NCBI RefSeq assembly: GCF_021223605.1
Contig: NZ_CP075175.1
Span: 1,530,001 to 1,594,000 of the forward strand
Reading direction: 5' to 3'
Source of the DNA: Paenibacillus sp. 481
GTDB lineage: Bacteria; Bacillota; Bacilli; Paenibacillales; Paenibacillaceae
Length of the DNA: 64,000 bases
Both the position numbers and the translations under genes were made by a program. The notes under the pieces were generated by a model. That model saw nothing but the letters and a program-made list of their open reading frames with translations. It was not told the DNA's origin and did not search any database. Numbering within the stretch: position 1 is the first letter of the stretch; the number at the start of each line of letters is the position of its first letter. Below are positions 1 to 53,146 of this stretch, piece by piece.

Positions 1-100
1 AACCATCAGGAGTGCAAGCACTCCATCAAGTCCGCTCGACTTGCATGTATTAGGCACGCCGCCAGCGTTCGTCCTGAGCCAGGATCAAACTCTCCATAAA
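1..100 (-). rRNA. 16S rRNA, 5' end (partial)
   Basis: The reverse complement contains the universal 16S 5' sequence AGAGTTTGATCCTGGCTCAG followed by the GACGAACGCTGGCGGCGTGC block. The V1 region is of Paenibacillus type. The mature 5' end should lie near position 100 by analogy with Bacillus 16S (TTTAT..GGAGAGTTTG). The gene runs off the left edge of the window, so only about 100 nt are present. Confidence 0.97.
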
Positions 101-41693: not shown

Positions 41694-42215
41694 TCATAAT
41701 CCGGTTTCATAGTCTTCGATTAGATGTGACCAATATCCTTCAACGTCTTTCATCGCTTCGGGATCAATTTGTTCAAATAACCCACGTAGCTCAATCGCAT
41801 ATTTATATGAATTAAATTCACCTTCTTTTCTCATTTTCGTGGCCACTTCATTTTTAATTAAATCGAACAAAAAAAATGTTCTCAAGTTTTTATTAAACAT
41901 ATAAATTTGGGGGGCATGAAGGGAAGAAGTAGTGAAAAAACCATCGCTACCTTCTTTTAAGTACAAATCTTTTGATTTACGCCCACCGTAATCTGCATAA
42001 TGACCGATAATAATAAATCGTTCACCTTCAATAAATGTTTTTTGAAAAGCATTTTCGTCATAGAATACAAAATTATCATATTTCTCTGGCACTCCAATAC
42101 TAACCATAAAATCAGCATTTTCATGACTAATACCAAGTTCAATCAATTCAAAGTAATTATAGTCTCGTAATTTAGTATCATAATAACCGAGGATCTCATG
42201 GATATCAAATTCCAT
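41694..42215 (-). CDS. SUKH-type immunity protein
   Basis: 173 residues, AT-rich coding DNA. It has the SUKH layout: an early ISHENADFMVSIGVPEKYDNF block (the G(I/V)P motif), a central FIIIGHYADYGGRK turn and a C-terminal FEQIDPEAM..GYWSHLIED helix. SUKH-4 is the best guess. SUKH proteins neutralise nuclease and deaminase toxins of polymorphic toxin systems. No intact toxin lies directly upstream, only a broken remnant (42229-42370), so this is an orphan immunity gene. The start has a GGAGTGAGAG ribosome binding site. Confidence 0.7.
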   Translation of the reverse strand: MEFDIHEILGYYDTKLRDYNYFELIELGISHENADFMVSIGVPEKYDNFVFYDENAFQKTFIEGERFIIIGHYADYGGRKSKDLYLKEGSDGFFTTSSLHAPQIYMFNKNLRTFFLFDLIKNEVATKMRKEGEFNSYKYAIELRGLFEQIDPEAMKDVEGYWSHLIEDYETGL

Positions 42216-44160: not shown

Positions 44161-44694
44161 TCACTTTTCTTCTTCACTATCTTTTAAAAAATCCTCCTCT
44201 TCATATGGATAATTCAATAGTGCTAGATTTTCTTTTGCCAGATACCATGCCCGATAATCTAAATTACTATTAATAATTAAACGCCCTTTAATTCTTTTCA
44301 ATAGTGGATACGAGGTATGATCTTCAATAACCAAATCCAAATTGTTCATTCGCAATATTTTACCAATTAACTCCAACATTTTTAACCAACCAATATCAAA
44401 AGTGCTTGTTATAAATTGAATACTAATAAGAACATTTGTAGTCACACCATACGCTTCAAAATTCATTTCTCGAAAACGCTCCAAATATTCATCCTCACCA
44501 TCTAAATCAATACTCATTGAAAAATAAGTGCAACCAATACTCACTTCTCGATTATCAGACCTATCTCGCACTTCTGCCTCATCATCAATTAATTCTACAA
44601 ATAATACTTCACATATCATATCATAAAGCAACTTTCTCAAGGATTCTCTAGGTAAATCAAAACCAATAGATAGCCTAAAATCCATATTACTCAT
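44161..44694 (-). CDS. probable immunity protein of the CdiA-type tRNase tip
   Basis: 177 residues, acidic, soluble, AT-rich DNA. No confident family match; the layout of alternating strands and helices with a MDFRLSIGFDLPRE start is like small immunity proteins. Its ATG at 44694 overlaps the end of the tRNase-tip gene by 8 bp, and its ribosome binding site (GGAGGT) lies inside that gene. Such coupling is standard for toxin/immunity pairs, and this is the basis for the call. A terminator follows. Confidence 0.6.
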   Translation of the reverse strand: MSNMDFRLSIGFDLPRESLRKLLYDMICEVLFVELIDDEAEVRDRSDNREVSIGCTYFSMSIDLDGEDEYLERFREMNFEAYGVTTNVLISIQFITSTFDIGWLKMLELIGKILRMNNLDLVIEDHTSYPLLKRIKGRLIINSNLDYRAWYLAKENLALLNYPYEEEDFLKDSEEEK

Positions 44695-45394
44695 ACCTCC
44701 AGTACGCTCTAGTTACTTGACGACCTTCAATGACTAATAGTTCATTTAAATGTTTTAAATCCTTGTGTGTCTGACTTATTAAATGATCAATAAGCTCCGT
44801 CCTTTTCTCAACAGGATAGTCATTTAAATTTAACACTATTCTTCTAGCTTGCTTTGTAGTTTTTTCTCTAAGCATGTCAAGAGTATTTTTTAGAATAATT
44901 GAATCAGGAGCATAACAATCAAATACTTGTCCCTCTATAATAAAATCTGGGCTTTTTTTAGGATCAATACCATAGCCATTTCCACCAAAACCATTTCCGT
45001 TTGGAAGTTCATCAAGCATTATAGTACGATACCCTTGTTCTGCAAGTACAATAGCAGATTCATTTTGTCTTTCTAATCCTCTATCACCTTTCGGTGGGAT
45101 CTTGGCATAATCCCCTTCCGCTTCCCCCCCCTTAGATAACGATGGTTTAGTAATTTTAGAATTTGGTCTAATTTTAGGTGTATAAGGAATATGCTTATCA
45201 CCATATAGCTTGTATTCAGAGCTCGTTTTCCAGTCCACATTGTCATCACCATATTTTGAACGGAAATACTCATCCCATTCTGATCCTGATCTAGGTATCT
45301 TTGAAGAATTACCCATCCCCTCTATAGAAAACGGAAATTTGTTAAAATAGATCTGTTGCTTATTTGAAACTCGGAGGAATTGAAATGAAAACAA
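44687..45394 (-). CDS. orphan CdiA-CT-type tRNase toxin tip
   Basis: Up to 235 residues. The last 130 residues match the CdiA_C tRNA-nuclease domain (LERQNESAIVLAEQGYRTIM, SPDFIIEGQVFDCYAPDS, QARRIVLNLND). Before it is a pre-toxin linker (SGSEWDEYFRSKYGDDNVDW) common in polymorphic toxins. No secretion or carrier domain is attached. The first 26 codons before EGMG look like non-native sequence; real similarity to a toxin tip begins at Met27-Gly28 (45316), where 14 bp are identical to the tip junction in the VgrG-deaminase gene. It is therefore best seen as a silent tip cassette. It is divergent from the endonuclease V gene and coupled to an immunity gene. Confidence 0.7.
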   Translation of the reverse strand: MFSFQFLRVSNKQQIYFNKFPFSIEGMGNSSKIPRSGSEWDEYFRSKYGDDNVDWKTSSEYKLYGDKHIPYTPKIRPNSKITKPSLSKGGEAEGDYAKIPPKGDRGLERQNESAIVLAEQGYRTIMLDELPNGNGFGGNGYGIDPKKSPDFIIEGQVFDCYAPDSIILKNTLDMLREKTTKQARRIVLNLNDYPVEKRTELIDHLISQTHKDLKHLNELLVIEGRQVTRAYWRYE

Positions 45395-46054
45395 ATGTGC
45401 ATAAATGGAATTTGTGTGAAATGGAAGCCATTAAAATACAGCAGGAATTATCCAAAAAATTATAAAAAAGATTTTTCGGATCAAATTCGCTATGTTGCCG
45501 GAGTAGATGTTGCTTATAGCAAAAGTAATAATAAATTAATAGCAGCAATTGTTATTTTAGAATCAGATTCATTGGAATTAGTAGAGTCAATTGTTATTAA
45601 AGATACAGTTCAATTCCCCTATATCCCAGGATTGTTCTCATTTAGAGAACTTCCTCCAATTATTAAGGCATTTGAAAAAATAAAGACTACTCCTCAGCTA
45701 GTCGTTTGCGATGGACATGGGCTTGCCCACCCTAGACGGTTTGGATTAGCCTATCATTTAGGGGTCCTTTTTGATATTCCTACAATTGGGTGTGAAAAAA
45801 TGAAGCTGTTGGGTAATTTTACTGAACCTGATCAAAATAGAGGAGATCTGTCACCATTAGTTGATAACAACGAAATCATTGGAAATGTATTACGAACGCA
45901 GAAGAACATTAAACCCATCTTTGTTTCAATCGGTCATCGAGTTTCTCTAAAAACTGCCTGCGAGTGGATACTCCGATTGTCACCGAAATATCGGTTACCT
46001 GAAACGACTCCACAGGCAGATCAGATCGTGAAAAAAAACTTGTCACTCAGCTAG
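45384..46054 (+). pseudogene. nfi: endonuclease V with N-terminal frameshift
   Basis: Endonuclease V nicks DNA 3' to deaminated bases, mainly inosine. The main frame carries all catalytic parts: YVAGVDVAYSK (Asp), FRELPPI (Glu), VCDGHGLAHPRRFGLA (Asp) and GCEKMKLLG. The native N-terminus, MKTNVHKWNLCEMEAIK.., starts at ATG 45384 behind GGAGG but runs into a stop after SKKL. Deleting one A from the AAAAAA run near 45453-45458 would restore one frame. It is either a real mutation or a sequencing indel. The annotated open frame alone has no good start. Confidence 0.75.
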
Positions 46055-46198: not shown

Positions 46199-46672
46199 TT
46201 ATTTTCCCTCTGACTTTTCAGCCCGTTTATTATACTTTTCGATCATTTTTTTATCAAATTCACTAGGTTCTGTTTTTTCGATGACTAATTCTCCTGCTTC
46301 ACTCCACTGTCTGTGTGTTATGCAAAATCCATACTTATATTCTTCTTTTGATTTTATGTTACCATTTTCAAACCAAGTGATTTTTTTTCCTGATATGACC
46401 CCATTGCTCATTTGTTGAGAACTCGCAACTTTACCACTTTCATAATAATTCACATTTTCTCCATCAGACATACCATTTTTGTAATGCGCATAATATGCCA
46501 AATTACCACTTTTATACCTTTCATAGAGTATACCTGATATAGGTATTCCCCCTTCTTCTAAAGGTTTATTAAAAACTTCTTGCCCATAAACCCCAGAATA
46601 ACAAACGTCCCCAGTGAACTCTATGCCATTAGATAGTACAAATTCTATAGGTAAAATATCAACATTACCCAT
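46199..46672 (-). CDS. ywqK: YwqK-family antitoxin (MORN-like repeats)
   Basis: 157 residues with MORN_2-type repeats: GILYERYKSGNLAYYAHYKNG, DGENVNYYESGKV, GKKITWFENGNIKSKEEYKYG. The YwqK family protects against YwqJ-type deaminase toxins in Bacillus. Here it lies 25 bp after the VgrG-like protein that ends in a YwqJ deaminase, the exact pairing expected for toxin and immunity. AT-rich DNA like the toxin tip. The ribosome binding site is GAGAGGCGG. It ends the operon. Confidence 0.82.
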   Translation of the reverse strand: MGNVDILPIEFVLSNGIEFTGDVCYSGVYGQEVFNKPLEEGGIPISGILYERYKSGNLAYYAHYKNGMSDGENVNYYESGKVASSQQMSNGVISGKKITWFENGNIKSKEEYKYGFCITHRQWSEAGELVIEKTEPSEFDKKMIEKYNKRAEKSEGK

Positions 46673-46697
46673 TTTGATAACCGCCTCTCAATATTAC

Positions 46698-49331
46698 CTA
46701 CTTTTTCAAATCAGATAGTATAGGAAAGCCTTTTAAAATATAATTACAGTGCGGACACGTATGAAACGGAATATCGGTTACAGGCTTTGTTGTGCCTCCT
46801 GGCTTAATAACGTATATTAGTATATCATCAAGAGTCGCATTTTGATTATCCAATAATGCTTTATTAGCCGCATATACTTCAGCGTGAGACCCTGCGCCAT
46901 GAGTATACAGACTATATGAATCATAAACATCATCCGGCATGTCAATAATTCGTTTTTCAATATGAGGGTGTAATTCTTTTGGTAATTTGCCTTCAACATC
47001 ATTAATCGCCGTGTAAATCTTACCAGTAGTTCTATCGTATGCTCCTGCAACTGCCGGACCAAGTTGCTTATTAGTAAGACCAATATCTTTCAACATCTGT
47101 GCCTCTTCAATAACATGGTTTTTAAGTTTCTGAATTTCCTCTGATGTAAAATTATCTAGATTACTTTTACCCATCCCCTCAGCAACATCATCTACTTTCG
47201 AAGGATTACTCCCACCACTGCCTCGACCACCAGTAGGAACAGGTATTTCATCATCCATCTTGGAGAAATTAACGTACCCCTGTCCACCGCCAGCATGCGC
47301 AGGAACAAGCCGTCCTCCATTTTGGTTGAGATTAAGCTGCTTCTTAACATTCTTCACGCCATTTTCCAACCATGGCGACACCTTATCAATCGTCTTGCCC
47401 AGCACTGGGTCAACGAGACCTCCGGTCAACATACCGATTCCAGTATCAATGAGTACTGTCTTGAAGCTGAATCCATTCCCTTCTAACGTCTGGCGGATCA
47501 CGCTTTCCACGCCATTCGTTAGACCGCCAAGCCCCATCTTGCCTCCGACAGTCGCCATCGAACCGAGCGGCCCAAATATCGCGCCCGACACCGCGCCTAT
47601 CACCGATTCTCGCGCCGCCGCTCCCGCATAGGCGCCGAAATCGCTCACCTCGCCGCGCATCACATCCGAGACAGCGACACTCGCAACAGCCGCCGTTCCG
47701 CCGATAGCAGCCCCTGCAACGACCGCTCCAATCACAACCGCCCCAGCGCCCAACGTCGCTACCGTCAAGGCCGCCGCTGCCACCACAACAGCGACTACAG
47801 CAAGGCCGCCCAACACGTTCATCGCCAGCTTCCCCCAACTAAATGGCGGCTCCGGATCCGGCGGCGGTGGCGGCTCACCCTTCTTCGGCTCATCGTTGTA
47901 CGGTGGGAATGTCGTGCGATCCTGACCTTCCAGCAACACATTTTCCCCGAGGAAATGGAACTCACTTTCAATCGCAAACCCGCTAGGCACATTGCGCTTC
48001 TTCACAAAAATCTGGCTCTGCGCACTCACCACTACCCGTTTAGGCGTATACAGCGAGATCTCACCATCCGCATTGAGCGTCAGCTTCTTGTGGCTGGTAA
48101 GTGTCACCCCAACCTTGTCATCAAAGCTAACGCTTAACGGCTCCTTACTCCCGCTCACCACGTTGATCGCGGTGGGCGACAGCTCCAGCTCGCTACCATG
48201 CTCCGTGCCAAAATAACGAATATTCGGATCACTCGTCTTCGCACAGCTTCCGCCATTTTTGCGCACGCAGCCTATCACAATTGCCCGCTTCCCCGTTGCA
48301 TCCGGCACATACAAGCTCGCATTCGTTCCTACCTGCGGCATACTGTACATCACATTTCCCGTCGGCGGCGCAAACGGGAACCAATACGCAGTCGACTTGG
48401 ACTGCTCCTGATCAAACTCCAAGTGGAGCTTGACCTGCTGCCCCTTCACATCCAGCACTTCGCCCTCAAGCGACACTCCAGCCAGCTTATCGTTATGTAT
48501 AATCGCTTGACGCACACCTTCCCGACGTGACAGCAAGTACGTATAAATAAACTGCCCACGATCCATCCGTGCCCTTACTTCGCTAACAACCATCCTCAGC
48601 CCACGAAACTGAATCTCATCACCGATCAGGTACCGTTCTCCACTTTCAATTTCGTAAGTAAAAAAATCAGTATCATGCAGCCCTGCTGCGCTCCCGCCCG
48701 CCTGTTGAAAGGCAAGCAAATTCTTGGCTGCCACATACGGCGTCTCATCAGACAGCGTATAGCTCTTTCCTTGCGGCAAACCAAAATAAAAACGCGGCTT
48801 TGCTTCTAATATATCACACACCACAACGCTGCTAAAATGGCTCGCCAATCGCTTCACAAACGCCCAATCCGTCTCGCTATATTGGAACAGCGGCGCTCCA
48901 AGCTTAACCCCATCACCGACACTTTCGATCACATCATAACCTGGGTACGTCTTAATGATCTCGCGAATCAGTGCAGAATAAGTCATATTCGTATCCTGAA
49001 ATGAGCGCTTCTTCCTTTTCACATCCAATTGAAAACTCGCCGATGCAGCCTCCACCTCAATCGTATACACACCGTTCAGATGGCTCATTTCGACCGACGT
49101 CACAATTCCTTCGAATAGAGTCTTTTCAGACTCCCTACCACTCTCATATACCCGAATAACATCGTCCGCTGTAGCTTGCAGCGCAGCATTCACCTTTGCT
49201 GTATCTTCTACGATTCCTCGTAAATAGAGCCGCCCATGTTCGTTAGCCCGCCATTCCATTCGTATATCTTCGATGCGTTTAATTCCGTACGGCGAAGCAG
49301 CTCTTAAATAATCAAATCCGATTATCCCCAT
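46698..49331 (-). CDS. VgrG-like spike protein fused to YwqJ deaminase toxin
   Basis: 877 residues. Residues 1-290 resemble the gp27/Phage_GPD part of VgrG (FLDVKRKKRSFQD-type block, FQYSETDWAFVKRLASHFSS), about 285-370 an OB-fold (LEGEVLDVKGQQVKLHLEF, YWFPFAPPTGNVMY), and 370-470 a beta-helix stem (SELELSPTAINVVSG, KKLTLNADGEISLY). A proline linker (487-497) leads to a Gly/Ala-rich hydrophobic region (503-640). The C-terminus from EGMG (718-721) is a YwqJ-type deaminase with HAE (816-818) and CPHC (859-862), a cytidine-deaminase-like zinc site. The tip DNA is AT-rich, while the backbone is GC-rich. The YwqK antitoxin gene follows. Confidence 0.82.
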   Translation of the reverse strand: MGIIGFDYLRAASPYGIKRIEDIRMEWRANEHGRLYLRGIVEDTAKVNAALQATADDVIRVYESGRESEKTLFEGIVTSVEMSHLNGVYTIEVEAASASFQLDVKRKKRSFQDTNMTYSALIREIIKTYPGYDVIESVGDGVKLGAPLFQYSETDWAFVKRLASHFSSVVVCDILEAKPRFYFGLPQGKSYTLSDETPYVAAKNLLAFQQAGGSAAGLHDTDFFTYEIESGERYLIGDEIQFRGLRMVVSEVRARMDRGQFIYTYLLSRREGVRQAIIHNDKLAGVSLEGEVLDVKGQQVKLHLEFDQEQSKSTAYWFPFAPPTGNVMYSMPQVGTNASLYVPDATGKRAIVIGCVRKNGGSCAKTSDPNIRYFGTEHGSELELSPTAINVVSGSKEPLSVSFDDKVGVTLTSHKKLTLNADGEISLYTPKRVVVSAQSQIFVKKRNVPSGFAIESEFHFLGENVLLEGQDRTTFPPYNDEPKKGEPPPPPDPEPPFSWGKLAMNVLGGLAVVAVVVAAAALTVATLGAGAVVIGAVVAGAAIGGTAAVASVAVSDVMRGEVSDFGAYAGAAARESVIGAVSGAIFGPLGSMATVGGKMGLGGLTNGVESVIRQTLEGNGFSFKTVLIDTGIGMLTGGLVDPVLGKTIDKVSPWLENGVKNVKKQLNLNQNGGRLVPAHAGGGQGYVNFSKMDDEIPVPTGGRGSGGSNPSKVDDVAEGMGKSNLDNFTSEEIQKLKNHVIEEAQMLKDIGLTNKQLGPAVAGAYDRTTGKIYTAINDVEGKLPKELHPHIEKRIIDMPDDVYDSYSLYTHGAGSHAEVYAANKALLDNQNATLDDILIYVIKPGGTTKPVTDIPFHTCPHCNYILKGFPILSDLKK

Positions 49332-49352
49332 CCATGTCCGCCTCCGCTTCGA

Positions 49353-49751
49353 TTACTTGCCATCCTGCCCATTGCTTAGGAAAGTGATCAACCCACCTAG
49401 CTCACACAGCAGCTCTGATTGCGTCGTCAGCGCCGCCTTTTGTTCGACCTTGGCATTTTCCTTCACTTTCATCCAATTGCTCAAAATCGCAGGGAGGCAT
49501 GGCTTACCGGATATCGTTGCCCCAGTTTCCTCCGCAATTAAGTAAATTACAGCTCCGCTTTGATTTTTTGCACCCGTACAAATCCCAAAGTGAGAGATGT
49601 TGTCCACTGGCTTGCAATCACTTTCATTCATCATCGGTTGCCCATTCACATAGGAACCGTGGCTAGTTGGCAAGTTAATTTTTCTTCGGTGACTGCCGCA
49701 ATCACATTTCATGGACGCTCCTCTGACCACGTATTGATGTACATCCGACAT
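49353..49751 (-). CDS. PAAR-like DUF4280 protein
   Basis: 132 residues. The DUF4280 features are clear: YVVRGASMKCDCGSH at the N-terminus, SHGSYVNGQPMMNESDC.P, NISHFGICTGAKN, KPCLPAILSNW and a last ALTTQSELLCELGG, giving six regularly placed cysteines. DUF4280 proteins are PAAR-like tip proteins of polymorphic toxin and contractile injection loci. It lies 21 bp before the VgrG-deaminase gene and would sit on the point of the spike (inference). The ribosome binding site is AGGAGGGGAG. Confidence 0.85.
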   Translation of the reverse strand: MSDVHQYVVRGASMKCDCGSHRRKINLPTSHGSYVNGQPMMNESDCKPVDNISHFGICTGAKNQSGAVIYLIAEETGATISGKPCLPAILSNWMKVKENAKVEQKAALTTQSELLCELGGLITFLSNGQDGK

Positions 49752-49779
49752 CTCCCCTCCTCCTTTCTAACCACGATTT

Positions 49780-50328
49780 TTAAAAATAAGAACTCCGCAT
49801 TTGTTCAATCGCTACCTTCTCAAGCTGAATGCCTACCAAACTCCGCCGCAAAATGCTCTCTGCAACGTCTAGCCGAACGACTACGAGCCGCTGTGAACTT
49901 CCCTTGATCGATACAATCTTCTTACCTTGCAAGGCATCTCCAAGCAAAATAAGCTTTTTAATTACGCTTTTATCCGTATTAAATTCACAACTTGGGCTTA
50001 GCGCATCTACTTCTTCAAAGATAGGGAGAACATAATTGTGCTGCTTATGATGGACGTGATCGACAAGGGGAGTAAGTTTAAATATCGTATCTGGTGCATA
50101 CAATTCAACAACTCGTTTCAGTTGATCAGACATTAGAAAGAGTTGTTGATCGAACAAGTCTAAATAGCTGCTGTCTGCTTCTGCTTTAACATAGAACATC
50201 AACGTATCCGCGATGCTGTGGGCATTCAAACGGTTAATATGGCGTGAATCGAGCTTCTGTCTTACTTCTTGCAACACGGGAACATTCGTATATCGTCGGT
50301 CTTGTTTAAGTAAAAAGTAATCCATCAT
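49780..50328 (-). CDS. unrecognised protein of spike operon
   Basis: 182 residues, soluble, mixed alpha/beta. The start YFLLKQDRRYTNVPVL and the end LVVVRLDVAESILRRSLVGIQLEKVAIE faintly recall the Imm11/DUF1629 group, but not enough to assign it. It lies between another unknown gene (33 bp) and the PAAR-like gene (28 bp), on the same strand. Possible roles are an adaptor between spike and tip or an immunity-like protein. No signal peptide. Confidence 0.6.
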   Translation of the reverse strand: MMDYFLLKQDRRYTNVPVLQEVRQKLDSRHINRLNAHSIADTLMFYVKAEADSSYLDLFDQQLFLMSDQLKRVVELYAPDTIFKLTPLVDHVHHKQHNYVLPIFEEVDALSPSCEFNTDKSVIKKLILLGDALQGKKIVSIKGSSQRLVVVRLDVAESILRRSLVGIQLEKVAIEQMRSSYF

Positions 50329-50361
50329 CCGTGATCCGCTCCATCAGCTCTGTTATGACGT

Positions 50362-50991
50362 TCATTCATAACCATGGTCAGCACCTTCGAGACTTTCGTT
50401 GTATTCATGCAACAGCTCGCACTGATCTCGGTATTCACCAACAAATAACTTCAGCTGAGTAGACTTCGCCATCTGTTGAAATCCTTTACAATTCAGCAAT
50501 GCAGGAACCATGCTTTTCATAAATTCAACCACTAACACGTGATACTTGAGCGCTTCAAGCTGTACCATATGCTCAATATCCATCGACGTGACTTTGCGGG
50601 CATAGTCACCTTTTTTTCGTTCCAAATGATCGATTGTGCGAAAAAGAGGATCAAATATAAAATCAGCCTGCCACATCTTCGAGCACTCAGTTCGGTCTAA
50701 AAACCATTGTTCATCATAAGCATCAAATCGATAAGTAGACGACTGCTGCATCATGCTGGTCCGCAAAAAGGAAATATACATATAGTGAATATCCCCTTTG
50801 ATTCCTTGCTCCTGCTGCTCGTAAGCTTGCATACATAAGTCATGAAAGGCCGATATTAATCCGTGTTCAATGCTCTCCCGCTGCTCGCTGTAGCGCTCAT
50901 TAATGACCACAAAATCATACTGCCATTGGTCACGTACATAGGTTTCATAAAAATGCTGTAACGCCTCTTGCTTGCTTATAAGCTGACTCAT
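50362..50991 (-). CDS. unrecognised helical protein of spike operon
   Basis: 209 residues, strongly helical, rich in Gln, Tyr and Met, without membrane segments or known motifs. The start codon overlaps the stop of the VgrG-like gene upstream by 4 bp, so it is translationally coupled to it. The order VgrG-unknown-unknown-PAAR suggests a chaperone or loading factor (inference only). Confidence 0.65.
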   Translation of the reverse strand: MSQLISKQEALQHFYETYVRDQWQYDFVVINERYSEQRESIEHGLISAFHDLCMQAYEQQEQGIKGDIHYMYISFLRTSMMQQSSTYRFDAYDEQWFLDRTECSKMWQADFIFDPLFRTIDHLERKKGDYARKVTSMDIEHMVQLEALKYHVLVVEFMKSMVPALLNCKGFQQMAKSTQLKLFVGEYRDQCELLHEYNESLEGADHGYE

Positions 50992-52400
50992 TCAATATTG
51001 ACCTTGGCGCCACTAAGTTGGACCTGCTCCAAAATGTTAAGGCTCGCATTGGCTTGTTTGAGATCAACGCCCTCTTCGCCTTGAATTAACACTTTGGCCC
51101 CGCCATTGATTTCAATGTCTTCTACTGCCGATAACACAATCTTTTTGTCGCTATTAATTTCGATACCACCTTCATCGGTAAGGCGCATCAACAGTTTGCC
51201 GCTCCCGATAATTTCAATGGCCCCTGGCTTAAACACAATTTGCTTGCCGTATTTGGTGCTTATACTTTTGACAGATGGGTCGCTGCGTCGTTCAGGATCA
51301 GGCGCGTCCGTATCTACGGAACTGGCTGCAAATGCATTCTCTTCTCGTTCATCTGGGAAATAAACGCGAATTTCATCACCCGTCTCCGGCATACAATACC
51401 AACCGGTTCCATCTGGAGAAGAAAACACCGTGGAGTATGGGAACCAAATTGCCTTAGACTTAGACTGCTGCCCGTCTATATGCAGCTGTACCTTAACTCT
51501 ATCTTTTGACACGTCTAATATTTTGCCAAAGAGCGAAATGCCCGACAGACCGTTGTTATATAACTTCTGGGAACTCAATCCCTTTTTATCACGCAACGTG
51601 TACTTGTTAATAAGCACACCGTTGGCGATGCTCGTCTCAACACGATATACGTACAACGTCCGCTGCTGGAAGATAACTGGACTGCACAGCTGGACAATTT
51701 TGTTGCTCGTCACCTCATAACTAATCATGTTCTGCTCGTAAATGTCCTGCATATCGCTGCTAGACTTCAGCCTATACTCATTTAAATCTTTTTTGATCGT
51801 ATAATTAAACTCTTCCAGCCGCTGAGGCTCACTCGACTCCGGAACTCCTACGACATACTTAACCCCGCGCAGTGTCGTGTTCGGCACGAGCGGAGCGTTA
51901 AAATGCGACGCCAATCGCTTGGCGAATTGCCAATCCGTTTCCTTATATTGAACAAGGAGTCCACCAATACTCTTGCCTTGCGAGGCCTCATCAATAACAT
52001 CGTATTGCGGATACGATTGTCCAATTGTAGAAAATAACTCCGTATAAGCTAACTGTTTATTTTGAAAAGTACGACTCTCTCGCTTAATATCCATCAAATA
52101 GCTGGAACTGCGAGCTTCAATCGTTATGCTTCTCACGTTCCGTACAGCTTGTACCGCTATGCTGGTAACGATGCCTTGAAATAATACAATCTTGTTATCT
52201 TCGTCTTGCACAAATAGTTCGATATGCTCCTGTTCATTCGCTCGCACTACATACTGATCCAGCTTAGACTCAGGTACAATTCCGCTAATCGTCAGCTTCG
52301 CATGCTCGTTCGTTTGTTTCGTTAATTTCAAATCCGTAATCGTCTCAAATTGGTATGGAGCCACAAACACGTTCGTATACGTATAAACCGCTTGGCTCAT
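50988..52400 (-). CDS. VgrG-like spike protein without toxin tip
   Basis: 470 residues. Paralogue of the N-terminal half of the protein at 46698-49331; the shared blocks are DIKRESRTFQNKQLAYTEL, YPQYDVIDEASQGKSIGG and YKETDWQFAKRLASHFN. A gp27-like domain (1-280), an OB-fold (SLFGKILDVSKDRVKVQLHI, 290-360) and a C-terminal beta-helix (INSDKKIVLSAVEDIEINGG) end without an extension. It may form the trimeric spike that carries effectors, or a mixed spike with the toxin-bearing paralogue. It follows the DcrB/Eag-like gene by 2 bp. Confidence 0.8.
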   Translation of the reverse strand: MSQAVYTYTNVFVAPYQFETITDLKLTKQTNEHAKLTISGIVPESKLDQYVVRANEQEHIELFVQDEDNKIVLFQGIVTSIAVQAVRNVRSITIEARSSSYLMDIKRESRTFQNKQLAYTELFSTIGQSYPQYDVIDEASQGKSIGGLLVQYKETDWQFAKRLASHFNAPLVPNTTLRGVKYVVGVPESSEPQRLEEFNYTIKKDLNEYRLKSSSDMQDIYEQNMISYEVTSNKIVQLCSPVIFQQRTLYVYRVETSIANGVLINKYTLRDKKGLSSQKLYNNGLSGISLFGKILDVSKDRVKVQLHIDGQQSKSKAIWFPYSTVFSSPDGTGWYCMPETGDEIRVYFPDEREENAFAASSVDTDAPDPERRSDPSVKSISTKYGKQIVFKPGAIEIIGSGKLLMRLTDEGGIEINSDKKIVLSAVEDIEINGGAKVLIQGEEGVDLKQANASLNILEQVQLSGAKVNIE

Positions 52401-52402
52401 CC

Positions 52403-52996
52403 TTACACCCCCTTCTCATCCTCTTGTACAACCTTAATCGTACGCATCACTTGAAACGCGAAATCCCGCCACTGCTTATGGTCAATGTAAAGGCAGTTAA
52501 AGGTGCCCATAATCGTCTTGCCTTCCAACTCAAAAAAGTACATCACATGATAAATAAATCCGTCTAAAGCTGGGCTCTTAAAATCGAAAAATCCGATTTG
52601 CTTGTTATCCACAACCTCGATACCTTCTGAGAAAAAGACATTAGATGGGTTAGCCTTTTGAATAATCGATTTCATCCCATCCGTCATTTGTTTGACCCAC
52701 TGCTCCTGCAAATCTTGATCAATCCAATTAAATGTAAAATTGATACTTCCAGACCCGTCGCTCTTAATGATCTGCGGGCGCTGCTCATAGGGATATTTAA
52801 GCTTTCTTAAATGTTCGGGCATATCTTCAAACTCAGTTGGGATATAGACCGATAATGTATCCTTGAAAAAGAGTTGCGGCGCAAACTCGATGTATTGATT
52901 CCCCACTCTAACGGGGCCAGCTAAAATGTCTTTCGGATACTGTGATTGTTCCGCTACATGAAGTGCGGCCTGTATGTTCTCATCTGCGTGCTTCAT
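52403..52996 (-). CDS. DcrB/Eag-like chaperone candidate
   Basis: 197 residues. The arrangement of strands and helices (FKDTLSVYIPTEFEDMP start, SINFTFNWIDQDLQEQW, GFFDFKSPALDGFIYHVMYF, MGTFNCLYIDHKQWRDFAFQ end) resembles the DcrB/PsbP fold of DUF1795 proteins. In Proteobacteria members of that fold (Eag) are chaperones for PAAR-type T6SS effectors. The similarity is a layout impression, not a search result. The frame is open to 53044, but the ATG at 52996 has AAGGAGATG. It is the first gene of the spike operon. Confidence 0.55.
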   Translation of the reverse strand: MKHADENIQAALHVAEQSQYPKDILAGPVRVGNQYIEFAPQLFFKDTLSVYIPTEFEDMPEHLRKLKYPYEQRPQIIKSDGSGSINFTFNWIDQDLQEQWVKQMTDGMKSIIQKANPSNVFFSEGIEVVDNKQIGFFDFKSPALDGFIYHVMYFFELEGKTIMGTFNCLYIDHKQWRDFAFQVMRTIKVVQEDEKGV

Positions 52997-53146
52997 TTGA
53001 CATCTCCTTGTATGAGAGAGTTTCTTACCTTGAGGTATGAGCATGGCTTCGGCCTTCGAAGTTTATATATTGTATATCGGTAAATCAAACCATTTTATAT
53101 ACAGGATTTTGAATATTTTTTTCTAAATATTGGCTTCAAAATGAAA

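Follow-up and report, generated by a model that had tools for sequence, protein, structure and literature searches.

Contact weapons of the type VI secretion system (T6SS) type are regarded as a Gram-negative device, in which control by a kinase, an Fha protein and a phosphatase is exerted through PpkA, Fha and PppA. The toxin pair ywqJ-ywqK of Bacillus subtilis, by contrast with the VgrG-borne toxin described below, is presumably of the LXG type. Here we describe an operon encoding VgrG-like spike proteins, a DUF4280 PAAR-like tip protein and a YwqJ deaminase in a 64,000-nucleotide stretch of the chromosome of Paenibacillus sp. 481 (contig NZ_CP075175.1, positions 1,530,001 to 1,594,000; the whole stretch analysed is hereafter called the window). 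In the sections considered here of two earlier papers, toxins fused to VgrG are treated under the T6SS (PMC3482391), and PAAR_H2 (DUF4280) proteins of Firmicutes are paired with VgrG proteins of the Phage_GPD type, with 20 genes examined on each side and no machine named (PMC8651086, mSystems 2021). We propose, with a probability of roughly 0.75, that the operon supplies payload and tip, as a module, to a phage-tail-like injection machine whose genes form a 13-gene cluster elsewhere on this chromosome. The machine appears to be little known and to be present in many soil bacilli. The link between module and machine is based on gene content, homology of the VgrG, DUF4280 and deaminase proteins, a weak, repeated homology of the tube, co-occurrence and linkage.

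A 13-gene cluster that accompanies the module

The cluster was located by reading the DNA upstream of the module in relatives, and was then found in the window's own genome (G000; handles with G and L denote genomes and loci) at a distance of 2.1 Mb from the window module (Table 1). The kinase, vWA, FHA and PP2C genes were named from Pfam matches of their orthologues, and DnaJ was named by eye. The 745-amino-acid (aa) protein is PP2C-related, as an in-house profile overlaps PP2C, and gives weak TPR matches, whereas the Hsp70-like orthologues match HSP70 (4.4e-4, under the cut-off) and SrfB (4.1e-7).

A pattern scan of GTDB genomes yielded 201 relatives of the 722-aa protein encoded by the third gene, 80 of which were kept. 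Downstream of the 722-aa gene and on the same strand, the genes for the tube, DnaJ, both FHA proteins and PP2C are present in 79/79 loci with enough sequence, the 745-aa gene in 78/78, and the 425-aa and 231-aa genes in 75/76 each. The Hsp70-like gene was found in 62/75 loci, where the fetched stretch often ends, the kinase gene in 71/79 and the vWA gene in 55/74; the gene order departs from the usual one in L170 and L174. The 722-aa gene occurs in Paenibacillus, Brevibacillus, Aneurinibacillus, Cohnella, Lysinibacillus, Sporosarcina, Solibacillus and Clostridium, and of 398 Bacillota genomes sampled, 13 match, the window's own included.

Module and cluster go together. Within the genus (19 genomes), module-type VgrG is present in 12 genomes, and the 722-aa gene in 11 of these 12 and in none of the other 7 (Fisher test 1.6e-4; the species are related, hence not independent). 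Within the family (245 genomes), 49 genomes have the 722-aa gene and 52 have module-type VgrG; all 49 also carry VgrG, 3 carry VgrG only and 193 carry neither (Fisher test 2e-48, a figure that does not count independent events, the species being related). The three genomes with VgrG alone are G009, G618 (weak VgrG match) and G623. G009 keeps the kinase, vWA, PP2C, 745-aa, 425-aa, 231-aa, Hsp70-like and 258-aa genes with a module alongside, but the aligned vWA and PP2C sequences lie ~110 bases apart, and the five genes that other genomes have in between (722-aa, tube, DnaJ and two FHA genes) are gone, which looks like a deletion within a formerly complete cluster. VgrG modules persist in this genome (G009:C2, loci L044 and L085), which has 14 VgrG matches.

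Moreover, in 40 of the 49 genomes the matches listed include a VgrG gene 10.5-14.6 kb downstream of the 722-aa gene and on its strand. As for the other nine, VgrG is far off in the window's genome and 28 kb off in G577, and in seven the matches listed include no VgrG further down the same strand of the contig. Two distant Bacillota show a closer arrangement: L168 has a single run of genes for a DUF4280 protein, Imm11, the 722-aa-like protein, the tube, VgrG, the 425-aa and 231-aa proteins, the Hsp70-like protein and the 258-aa protein, and L167 carries in a row Imm11, the 722-aa-like gene, tube, VgrG, 425-aa and 231-aa genes. In L171, the module adjoins the candidate sheath and tube genes; these three loci are the ones with VgrG within the stretch in a set of 12 fetched loci. 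The DUF4280 protein of L168 bears an AHH-nuclease-like region just under the cut-off. The Hsp70-like protein of this divergent cluster (L168:16011-18827) matches SrfB (PF07520, 4.1e-7), and the run holds a second Hsp70-like protein of 994 aa (L168:4595-7579; HSP70 0.0046, under the cut-off).

The preliminary description of the window had left two explanations, a machine elsewhere in the genome or a spike exported in a new way, and had called the operon a free-standing unit. The former explanation is favoured, though the machine itself is unusual. As module-type VgrG is hardly ever found without the 722-aa/tube cluster within the family, export without a machine is rejected as a rule, and with 49 of the 52 VgrG-bearing family genomes also carrying the 722-aa gene, neither new export nor the free-standing unit is supported as the general case. 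A spike that stands free, with a new export route and no tube machine, would agree with the lack of any machine gene adjoining the module in the window or at 4.94 Mb, where the genome has a second module, and with the VgrG genomes G623 and G618 that have no 722-aa gene. However, the co-occurrence and linkage across the family and the cluster remnant of G009 make it highly improbable.

The same description had reported no sheath, tube, baseplate or ATPase gene, which is true within the window; the genome, however, has three phage-tail-like systems, namely an eCIS-like (extracellular contractile injection system) cluster, a PBSX-type element and the 13-gene cluster. The eCIS-like cluster spans ~5.416-5.447 Mb of G000:C1 (L007 5887 to L008 17243) and has its own DUF4280 gene; the names of all its parts except the sheath and DUF4280 were assigned by eye, including that of a DUF4157-like protein. 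Its presence makes it a conceivable launcher of the window module. Yet the eCIS long sheath (600+ aa Phage_sheath_1) and close relatives of the ATPase occur in only 1/19 genus genomes, the window's own, compared to module-type VgrG in 12/19; in the other 18 genomes, the ATPase matches are partial, with identities of at most 38%, to other AAA-type proteins. The eCIS was thus rejected as a general launcher, and since it also possesses its own split hub and tip, its launching even the window module seems improbable. The PBSX-type element carries tail genes at 3.76 Mb (names read by eye), and phage-type sheaths are common across the genus; because a Phage_sheath_1 gene is found in 19/19 genus genomes with or without the module, it does not track the module. 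The PBSX-type tail was rejected as launcher, and we give it very little credence. An adjacent complete prophage, which the preliminary description had also considered, was looked for as well: no phage tail operon was seen in the window and none adjoins the module, so that the module is not regarded as part of an adjacent prophage.

Tube, spike and candidate sheath

The tube family matches TssD in 13 of 14 members (best 3.2e-5), and a broader profile of the family has a sole match in the PDB at E-values up to 10, that to Hcp1 (6bdc, 0.017). A six-frame TssD search of the 19 genomes gave the tube gene as best match in all 11 cluster genomes, with E-values of 0.017-0.26; a comparison of the tube with PHROGs found nothing useful. 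One 241-aa member of the family (L169:18433-19158) has a glycine-rich hydrophobic C-terminal extension and resembles an "evolved Hcp".

The spike was compared by hhalign with a panel of 24 references, against none of which the kinase family yielded a result. The VgrG family reached probabilities of 98.1% against T6SS VgrG and 98.6% against the eCIS gp5-like protein, which lends sequence support to the earlier reading of the VgrG-like proteins as a gp27/gp5-type spike. The VgrG of L168 matches in the PDB both VgrG proteins and a 7aef chain deposited as "SerB" (best 7.7e-5), which we take to be the spike of a contractile injection system.

The 722-aa gene directly precedes the tube gene in 79/79 informative loci. 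In L173, the pair stands without further cluster genes after it, and L172 is similar, although the contig stops at that point. Over its first 200 residues, the 722-aa protein aligns with TssB around a GD and an F-x-P motif, with a score higher than all 100 column shuffles, and against TssB this N-terminus scores higher than 15 other families of the cluster and module. Together, position and the weakly TssB-like N-terminus tentatively point to the 722-aa protein as a contractile sheath.

Several results weigh against the proposed machine. The 722-aa protein reaches an hhalign probability of 1.7-5.3% against TssB, 1/80 shuffles equalled its full-length score in one run, and its C-terminal part, which is not expected to resemble TssB, likewise beat all its shuffles. 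The family has no hhalign signal against TssC; the positive control, a comparison of TssC with the eCIS sheath, gives no signal either (0.7%), so that these sheath comparisons have little power for or against. The family also has no sheath match in Pfam or the PDB, where the best matches are to a short viral NS1 stretch and were taken as chance. P425, P231 and P258, the 425-, 231- and 258-aa proteins, match no baseplate family and give no hhalign signal against TssE, TssF, TssG or TssK, the genome itself not having been searched with these four families; shuffle tests of baseplate candidates covered P425-TssF, P425-TssG, P231-TssG and P258-TssK. For the tube, the genome-wide TssD matches are all under the Pfam cut-off, matches of similar E-value appear in unrelated frames in 3/8 genomes without the 722-aa gene (G009, G012 and G017), hhalign against proteobacterial Hcp gave no match, and a narrower tube profile gave only a chance match in the PDB. 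TssM (PF06761) has no match in the genome at E-values up to 10, and the TssC family has none there either. In addition, module and cluster are widely separated in the window's genome, the 722-aa gene is missing from two VgrG-bearing genomes, G618 (with its weak match) and G623, and 9 of the 12 fetched loci show no VgrG within the stretch, although the genomes of three of these (L176-L178) have VgrG just past it.

Some of these results would suit another view, in which cluster and module still form one system but the 722-aa protein is not a sheath, and the product would be either a tube device that does not contract or a spike under regulation that acts inside the cell or is released by lysis. 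It draws on the absence of a sheath family match for the 722-aa family and on a TssB signal that is weak and common to the C-terminal part. The invariant position of the tube gene directly after the 722-aa gene, and the isolated pair of L173, as expected of sheath plus tube, speak against it; we consider it unlikely, if a serious contender.

For the favoured injection machine, we propose that a TssD/Hcp-like tube would assemble upon the VgrG-DUF4280 spike, which may be loaded by three module proteins, the first one and the two small conserved ones. The deaminase would travel as the C-terminal extension of one VgrG, with the hydrophobic segment possibly aiding the crossing of the target membrane, and the 722-aa partner of the tube would act as the sheath. 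By analogy with PpkA, Fha and PppA of the T6SS, the kinase, FHA and PP2C proteins might switch the machine by Ser/Thr phosphorylation. The proteins with hydrophobic stretches may anchor it in the single membrane, the Hsp70-like protein and DnaJ may stand in for ClpV in building or recycling it, and the YwqK-like protein would shield the producer cell. Contraction, export and killing by the machine are proposals.

On balance, we lean slightly towards the view that Bacillota possess their own class of T6SS-like contractile weapon, with a TssD-type tube in a one-chain sheath formed by the 722-aa protein, discharge through a single membrane, Ser/Thr kinase-FHA-PP2C control, Hsp70/DnaJ for ClpV and exchangeable, scattered VgrG-DUF4280-toxin modules. 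If true, the weapon would exist in species of all the genera that have the 722-aa gene; if the cluster works as proposed, many spore formers would own an analogous weapon. The question of what launches VgrG/DUF4280 pairs would then become directly testable.

The module, its cargo and neighbouring genes

Table 1. Features of the window operon, its neighbour and the 13-gene cluster (window positions unless stated otherwise).
Feature	Coordinates	Strand	Description
First gene	52403..53044	-	213 aa by open reading frame; conserved family; likely start 52996 (internal ATG), giving 197 aa
Plain VgrG	50988..52400	-	470 aa; gp27 + gp5 type spike by Phage_GPD, Phage_base_V and hhalign
209-aa conserved protein	50362..50991	-	Conserved family; pentapeptide repeats in the two longer orthologues scanned
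182-aa Imm11-family-like protein	49780..50328	-	Weak immunity-type Pfam matches
DUF4280 PAAR-like tip protein	49353..49751	-	132 aa; PF14107, E 3.6e-29
VgrG-YwqJ fusion	46698..49331	-	877 aa; VgrG ~1-450, hydrophobic region 506-551, YwqJ deaminase 750-868
YwqK-like MORN_2 protein	46199..46672	-	157 aa; PF07661, 3.1e-8
Endonuclease V	45395..46054	+	Convergent with YwqK-like gene; PF04493, 9.7e-74
13-gene cluster	G000:C1:3677747-3694697		
Cluster genes 1-4			Ser/Thr kinase; vWA protein (opposite strand); 722-aa protein; 141-aa tube
Cluster genes 5-8			DnaJ; FHA (two hydrophobic stretches); FHA; PP2C (one hydrophobic stretch)
Cluster genes 9-13			745-aa (one hydrophobic stretch); 425-aa (P425); 231-aa (P231); 887-aa Hsp70-like; 258-aa (P258)

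The window operon consists of seven open frames running from 53044 to 46199, with junctions from a 4-base overlap at the tightest to a 33-base gap at the widest; open frames and tight junctions bear out the genes, order and strand given in the preliminary description, which had placed the operon end at the internal ATG of the first gene. The first protein shares 26% identity with its paralogue (L006:6743-7474). Its former label "DcrB/Eag-like" was not confirmed, as seven members of the family scanned have no DcrB/DUF1795 Pfam match (E up to 1, 0.1 or 10). The reading as a spike-effector unit is supported. The plain VgrG matches Phage_GPD above the Pfam cut-off (1.7e-7) and Phage_base_V just under it (1.1e-4), and the fusion matches Phage_GPD under the cut-off (3.2e-6). 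The linker between its VgrG part and deaminase has two hydrophobic stretches (506-524 and 533-551), and the deaminase (PF14431, E 5e-16) keeps the family motifs, HAE at 816 and CPHC (CxxC) at 859. The YwqK-like protein is the presumed immunity protein to this deaminase.

Both longer orthologues of the 209-aa protein that were scanned (385 and 396 aa) end in C-terminal pentapeptide repeats, and the protein is possibly a loading adaptor for the spike. The 182-aa protein itself is under the Imm11 cut-off of Pfam, whereas its relatives in L048 (1.3e-5) and L168 (3.1e-9) are above it; in L167 and L168, an Imm11-like relative is the neighbour of the candidate sheath gene.

The complete 5.69-Mb genome has three copies of DUF4280. 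The second module at 4.94 Mb (L006) matches the window module in gene order and comprises the first gene, VgrG, 209-aa-like, 182-aa-like and DUF4280 genes, a VgrG fusion and a small protein; the four protein pairs measured against the window module are 26-39% identical, and the fusion bears Rhs repeats (Rhs toxin). A survey of 22 loci, composed of the window, L006 and 20 loci fetched from 11 other genomes, contained at least 19 first-gene, 52 VgrG (fragments counted), 25 209-aa, 19 182-aa and 17 DUF4280 family members. These counts are minima, as the picker of open reading frames misses genes beneath longer antisense frames, such as DUF4280 of L042 and L043. The toxin ends vary among YwqJ, Rhs and Rhs + Ntox21, and in one locus a lipase-type domain (Lipase_3 4e-6, Mbeg1-like 1.4e-7) precedes DUF4280 in the same protein (L049:7400-9037). 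Cargo may therefore ride on the tip protein too.

Endonuclease V cleaves at deaminated purines, and a gene for it lies next to the operon; the deaminase target is thereby hinted to be DNA or nucleotides, and endonuclease V possibly provides self-protection against deaminated bases. The YwqK-like gene and convergent endonuclease V recur in L047, a locus with YwqJ and VgrG in fragmentary form; L140, L141 and L158 have endonuclease V but no YwqK match. We take B. subtilis ywqJ, ywqK and endonuclease V to be the same trio.

Adjoining endonuclease V, an orphan frame for a CdiA_C-type toxin (E 1.3e-18), which begins with TTG, is followed by a 177-aa frame (44161-45394, minus strand). Neither has a homologue in the 178 loci L001-L178 (tblastn, 1e-5), and the two look like a displaced toxin-immunity cassette. 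A SUKH-4-like immunity protein (41694-42215, minus strand; E 3.8e-4, under the cut-off) is possibly a further orphan immunity gene of the region. The start of a 16S rRNA gene lies at the window edge (1-100, minus strand).

Comparison with known systems

Among the matches listed from open-access PMC there was no account of the 13-gene cluster or its machine, which may be in print elsewhere, since preprints and most subscription papers lie outside that scope. Compared to the T6SS, the system has a VgrG spike (gp27+gp5), a PAAR-like tip (DUF4280), a tube with weak but repeated similarity to TssD (Hcp), an effector carried as a fusion to VgrG and paired with a presumed immunity gene, and the kinase, FHA and PP2C genes of the cluster. 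It differs in its host, a spore former with one membrane, in the Hsp70-like protein and DnaJ of the cluster, in the two small conserved proteins of the module, and in a sheath and baseplate not recognisable by sequence. No ClpV was seen in the 13-gene cluster as read, the genome not having been searched for this family. Because no TssC or TssM match was found in the genome and the cluster showed no recognisable baseplate family, we do not class it as a T6SS, though on present evidence it would appear to work like one.

Tube, spike and DUF4280 tip are also shared with the eCIS, of which the window's genome has an example. However, no DUF4157, LysM, gp25, baseplate-J or eCIS AAA+ gene was seen in the 13-gene cluster as read. 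The YwqJ polymorphic toxins share the YwqJ domain, the YwqK-like partner and the endonuclease V neighbour, but the carrier here is VgrG rather than LXG. Finally, in the sections of the 2021 paper considered here, the same gene pair is described from the same phylum, the DUF4280 protein of the window being assigned at the level of the family and not of subtype H2. The machine proposed here, if real, would account for the Firmicutes VgrG/DUF4280 pairs noted there without an adjacent machine (PMC8651086), to which the present analysis adds a proposed partner cluster sought across the whole genome.

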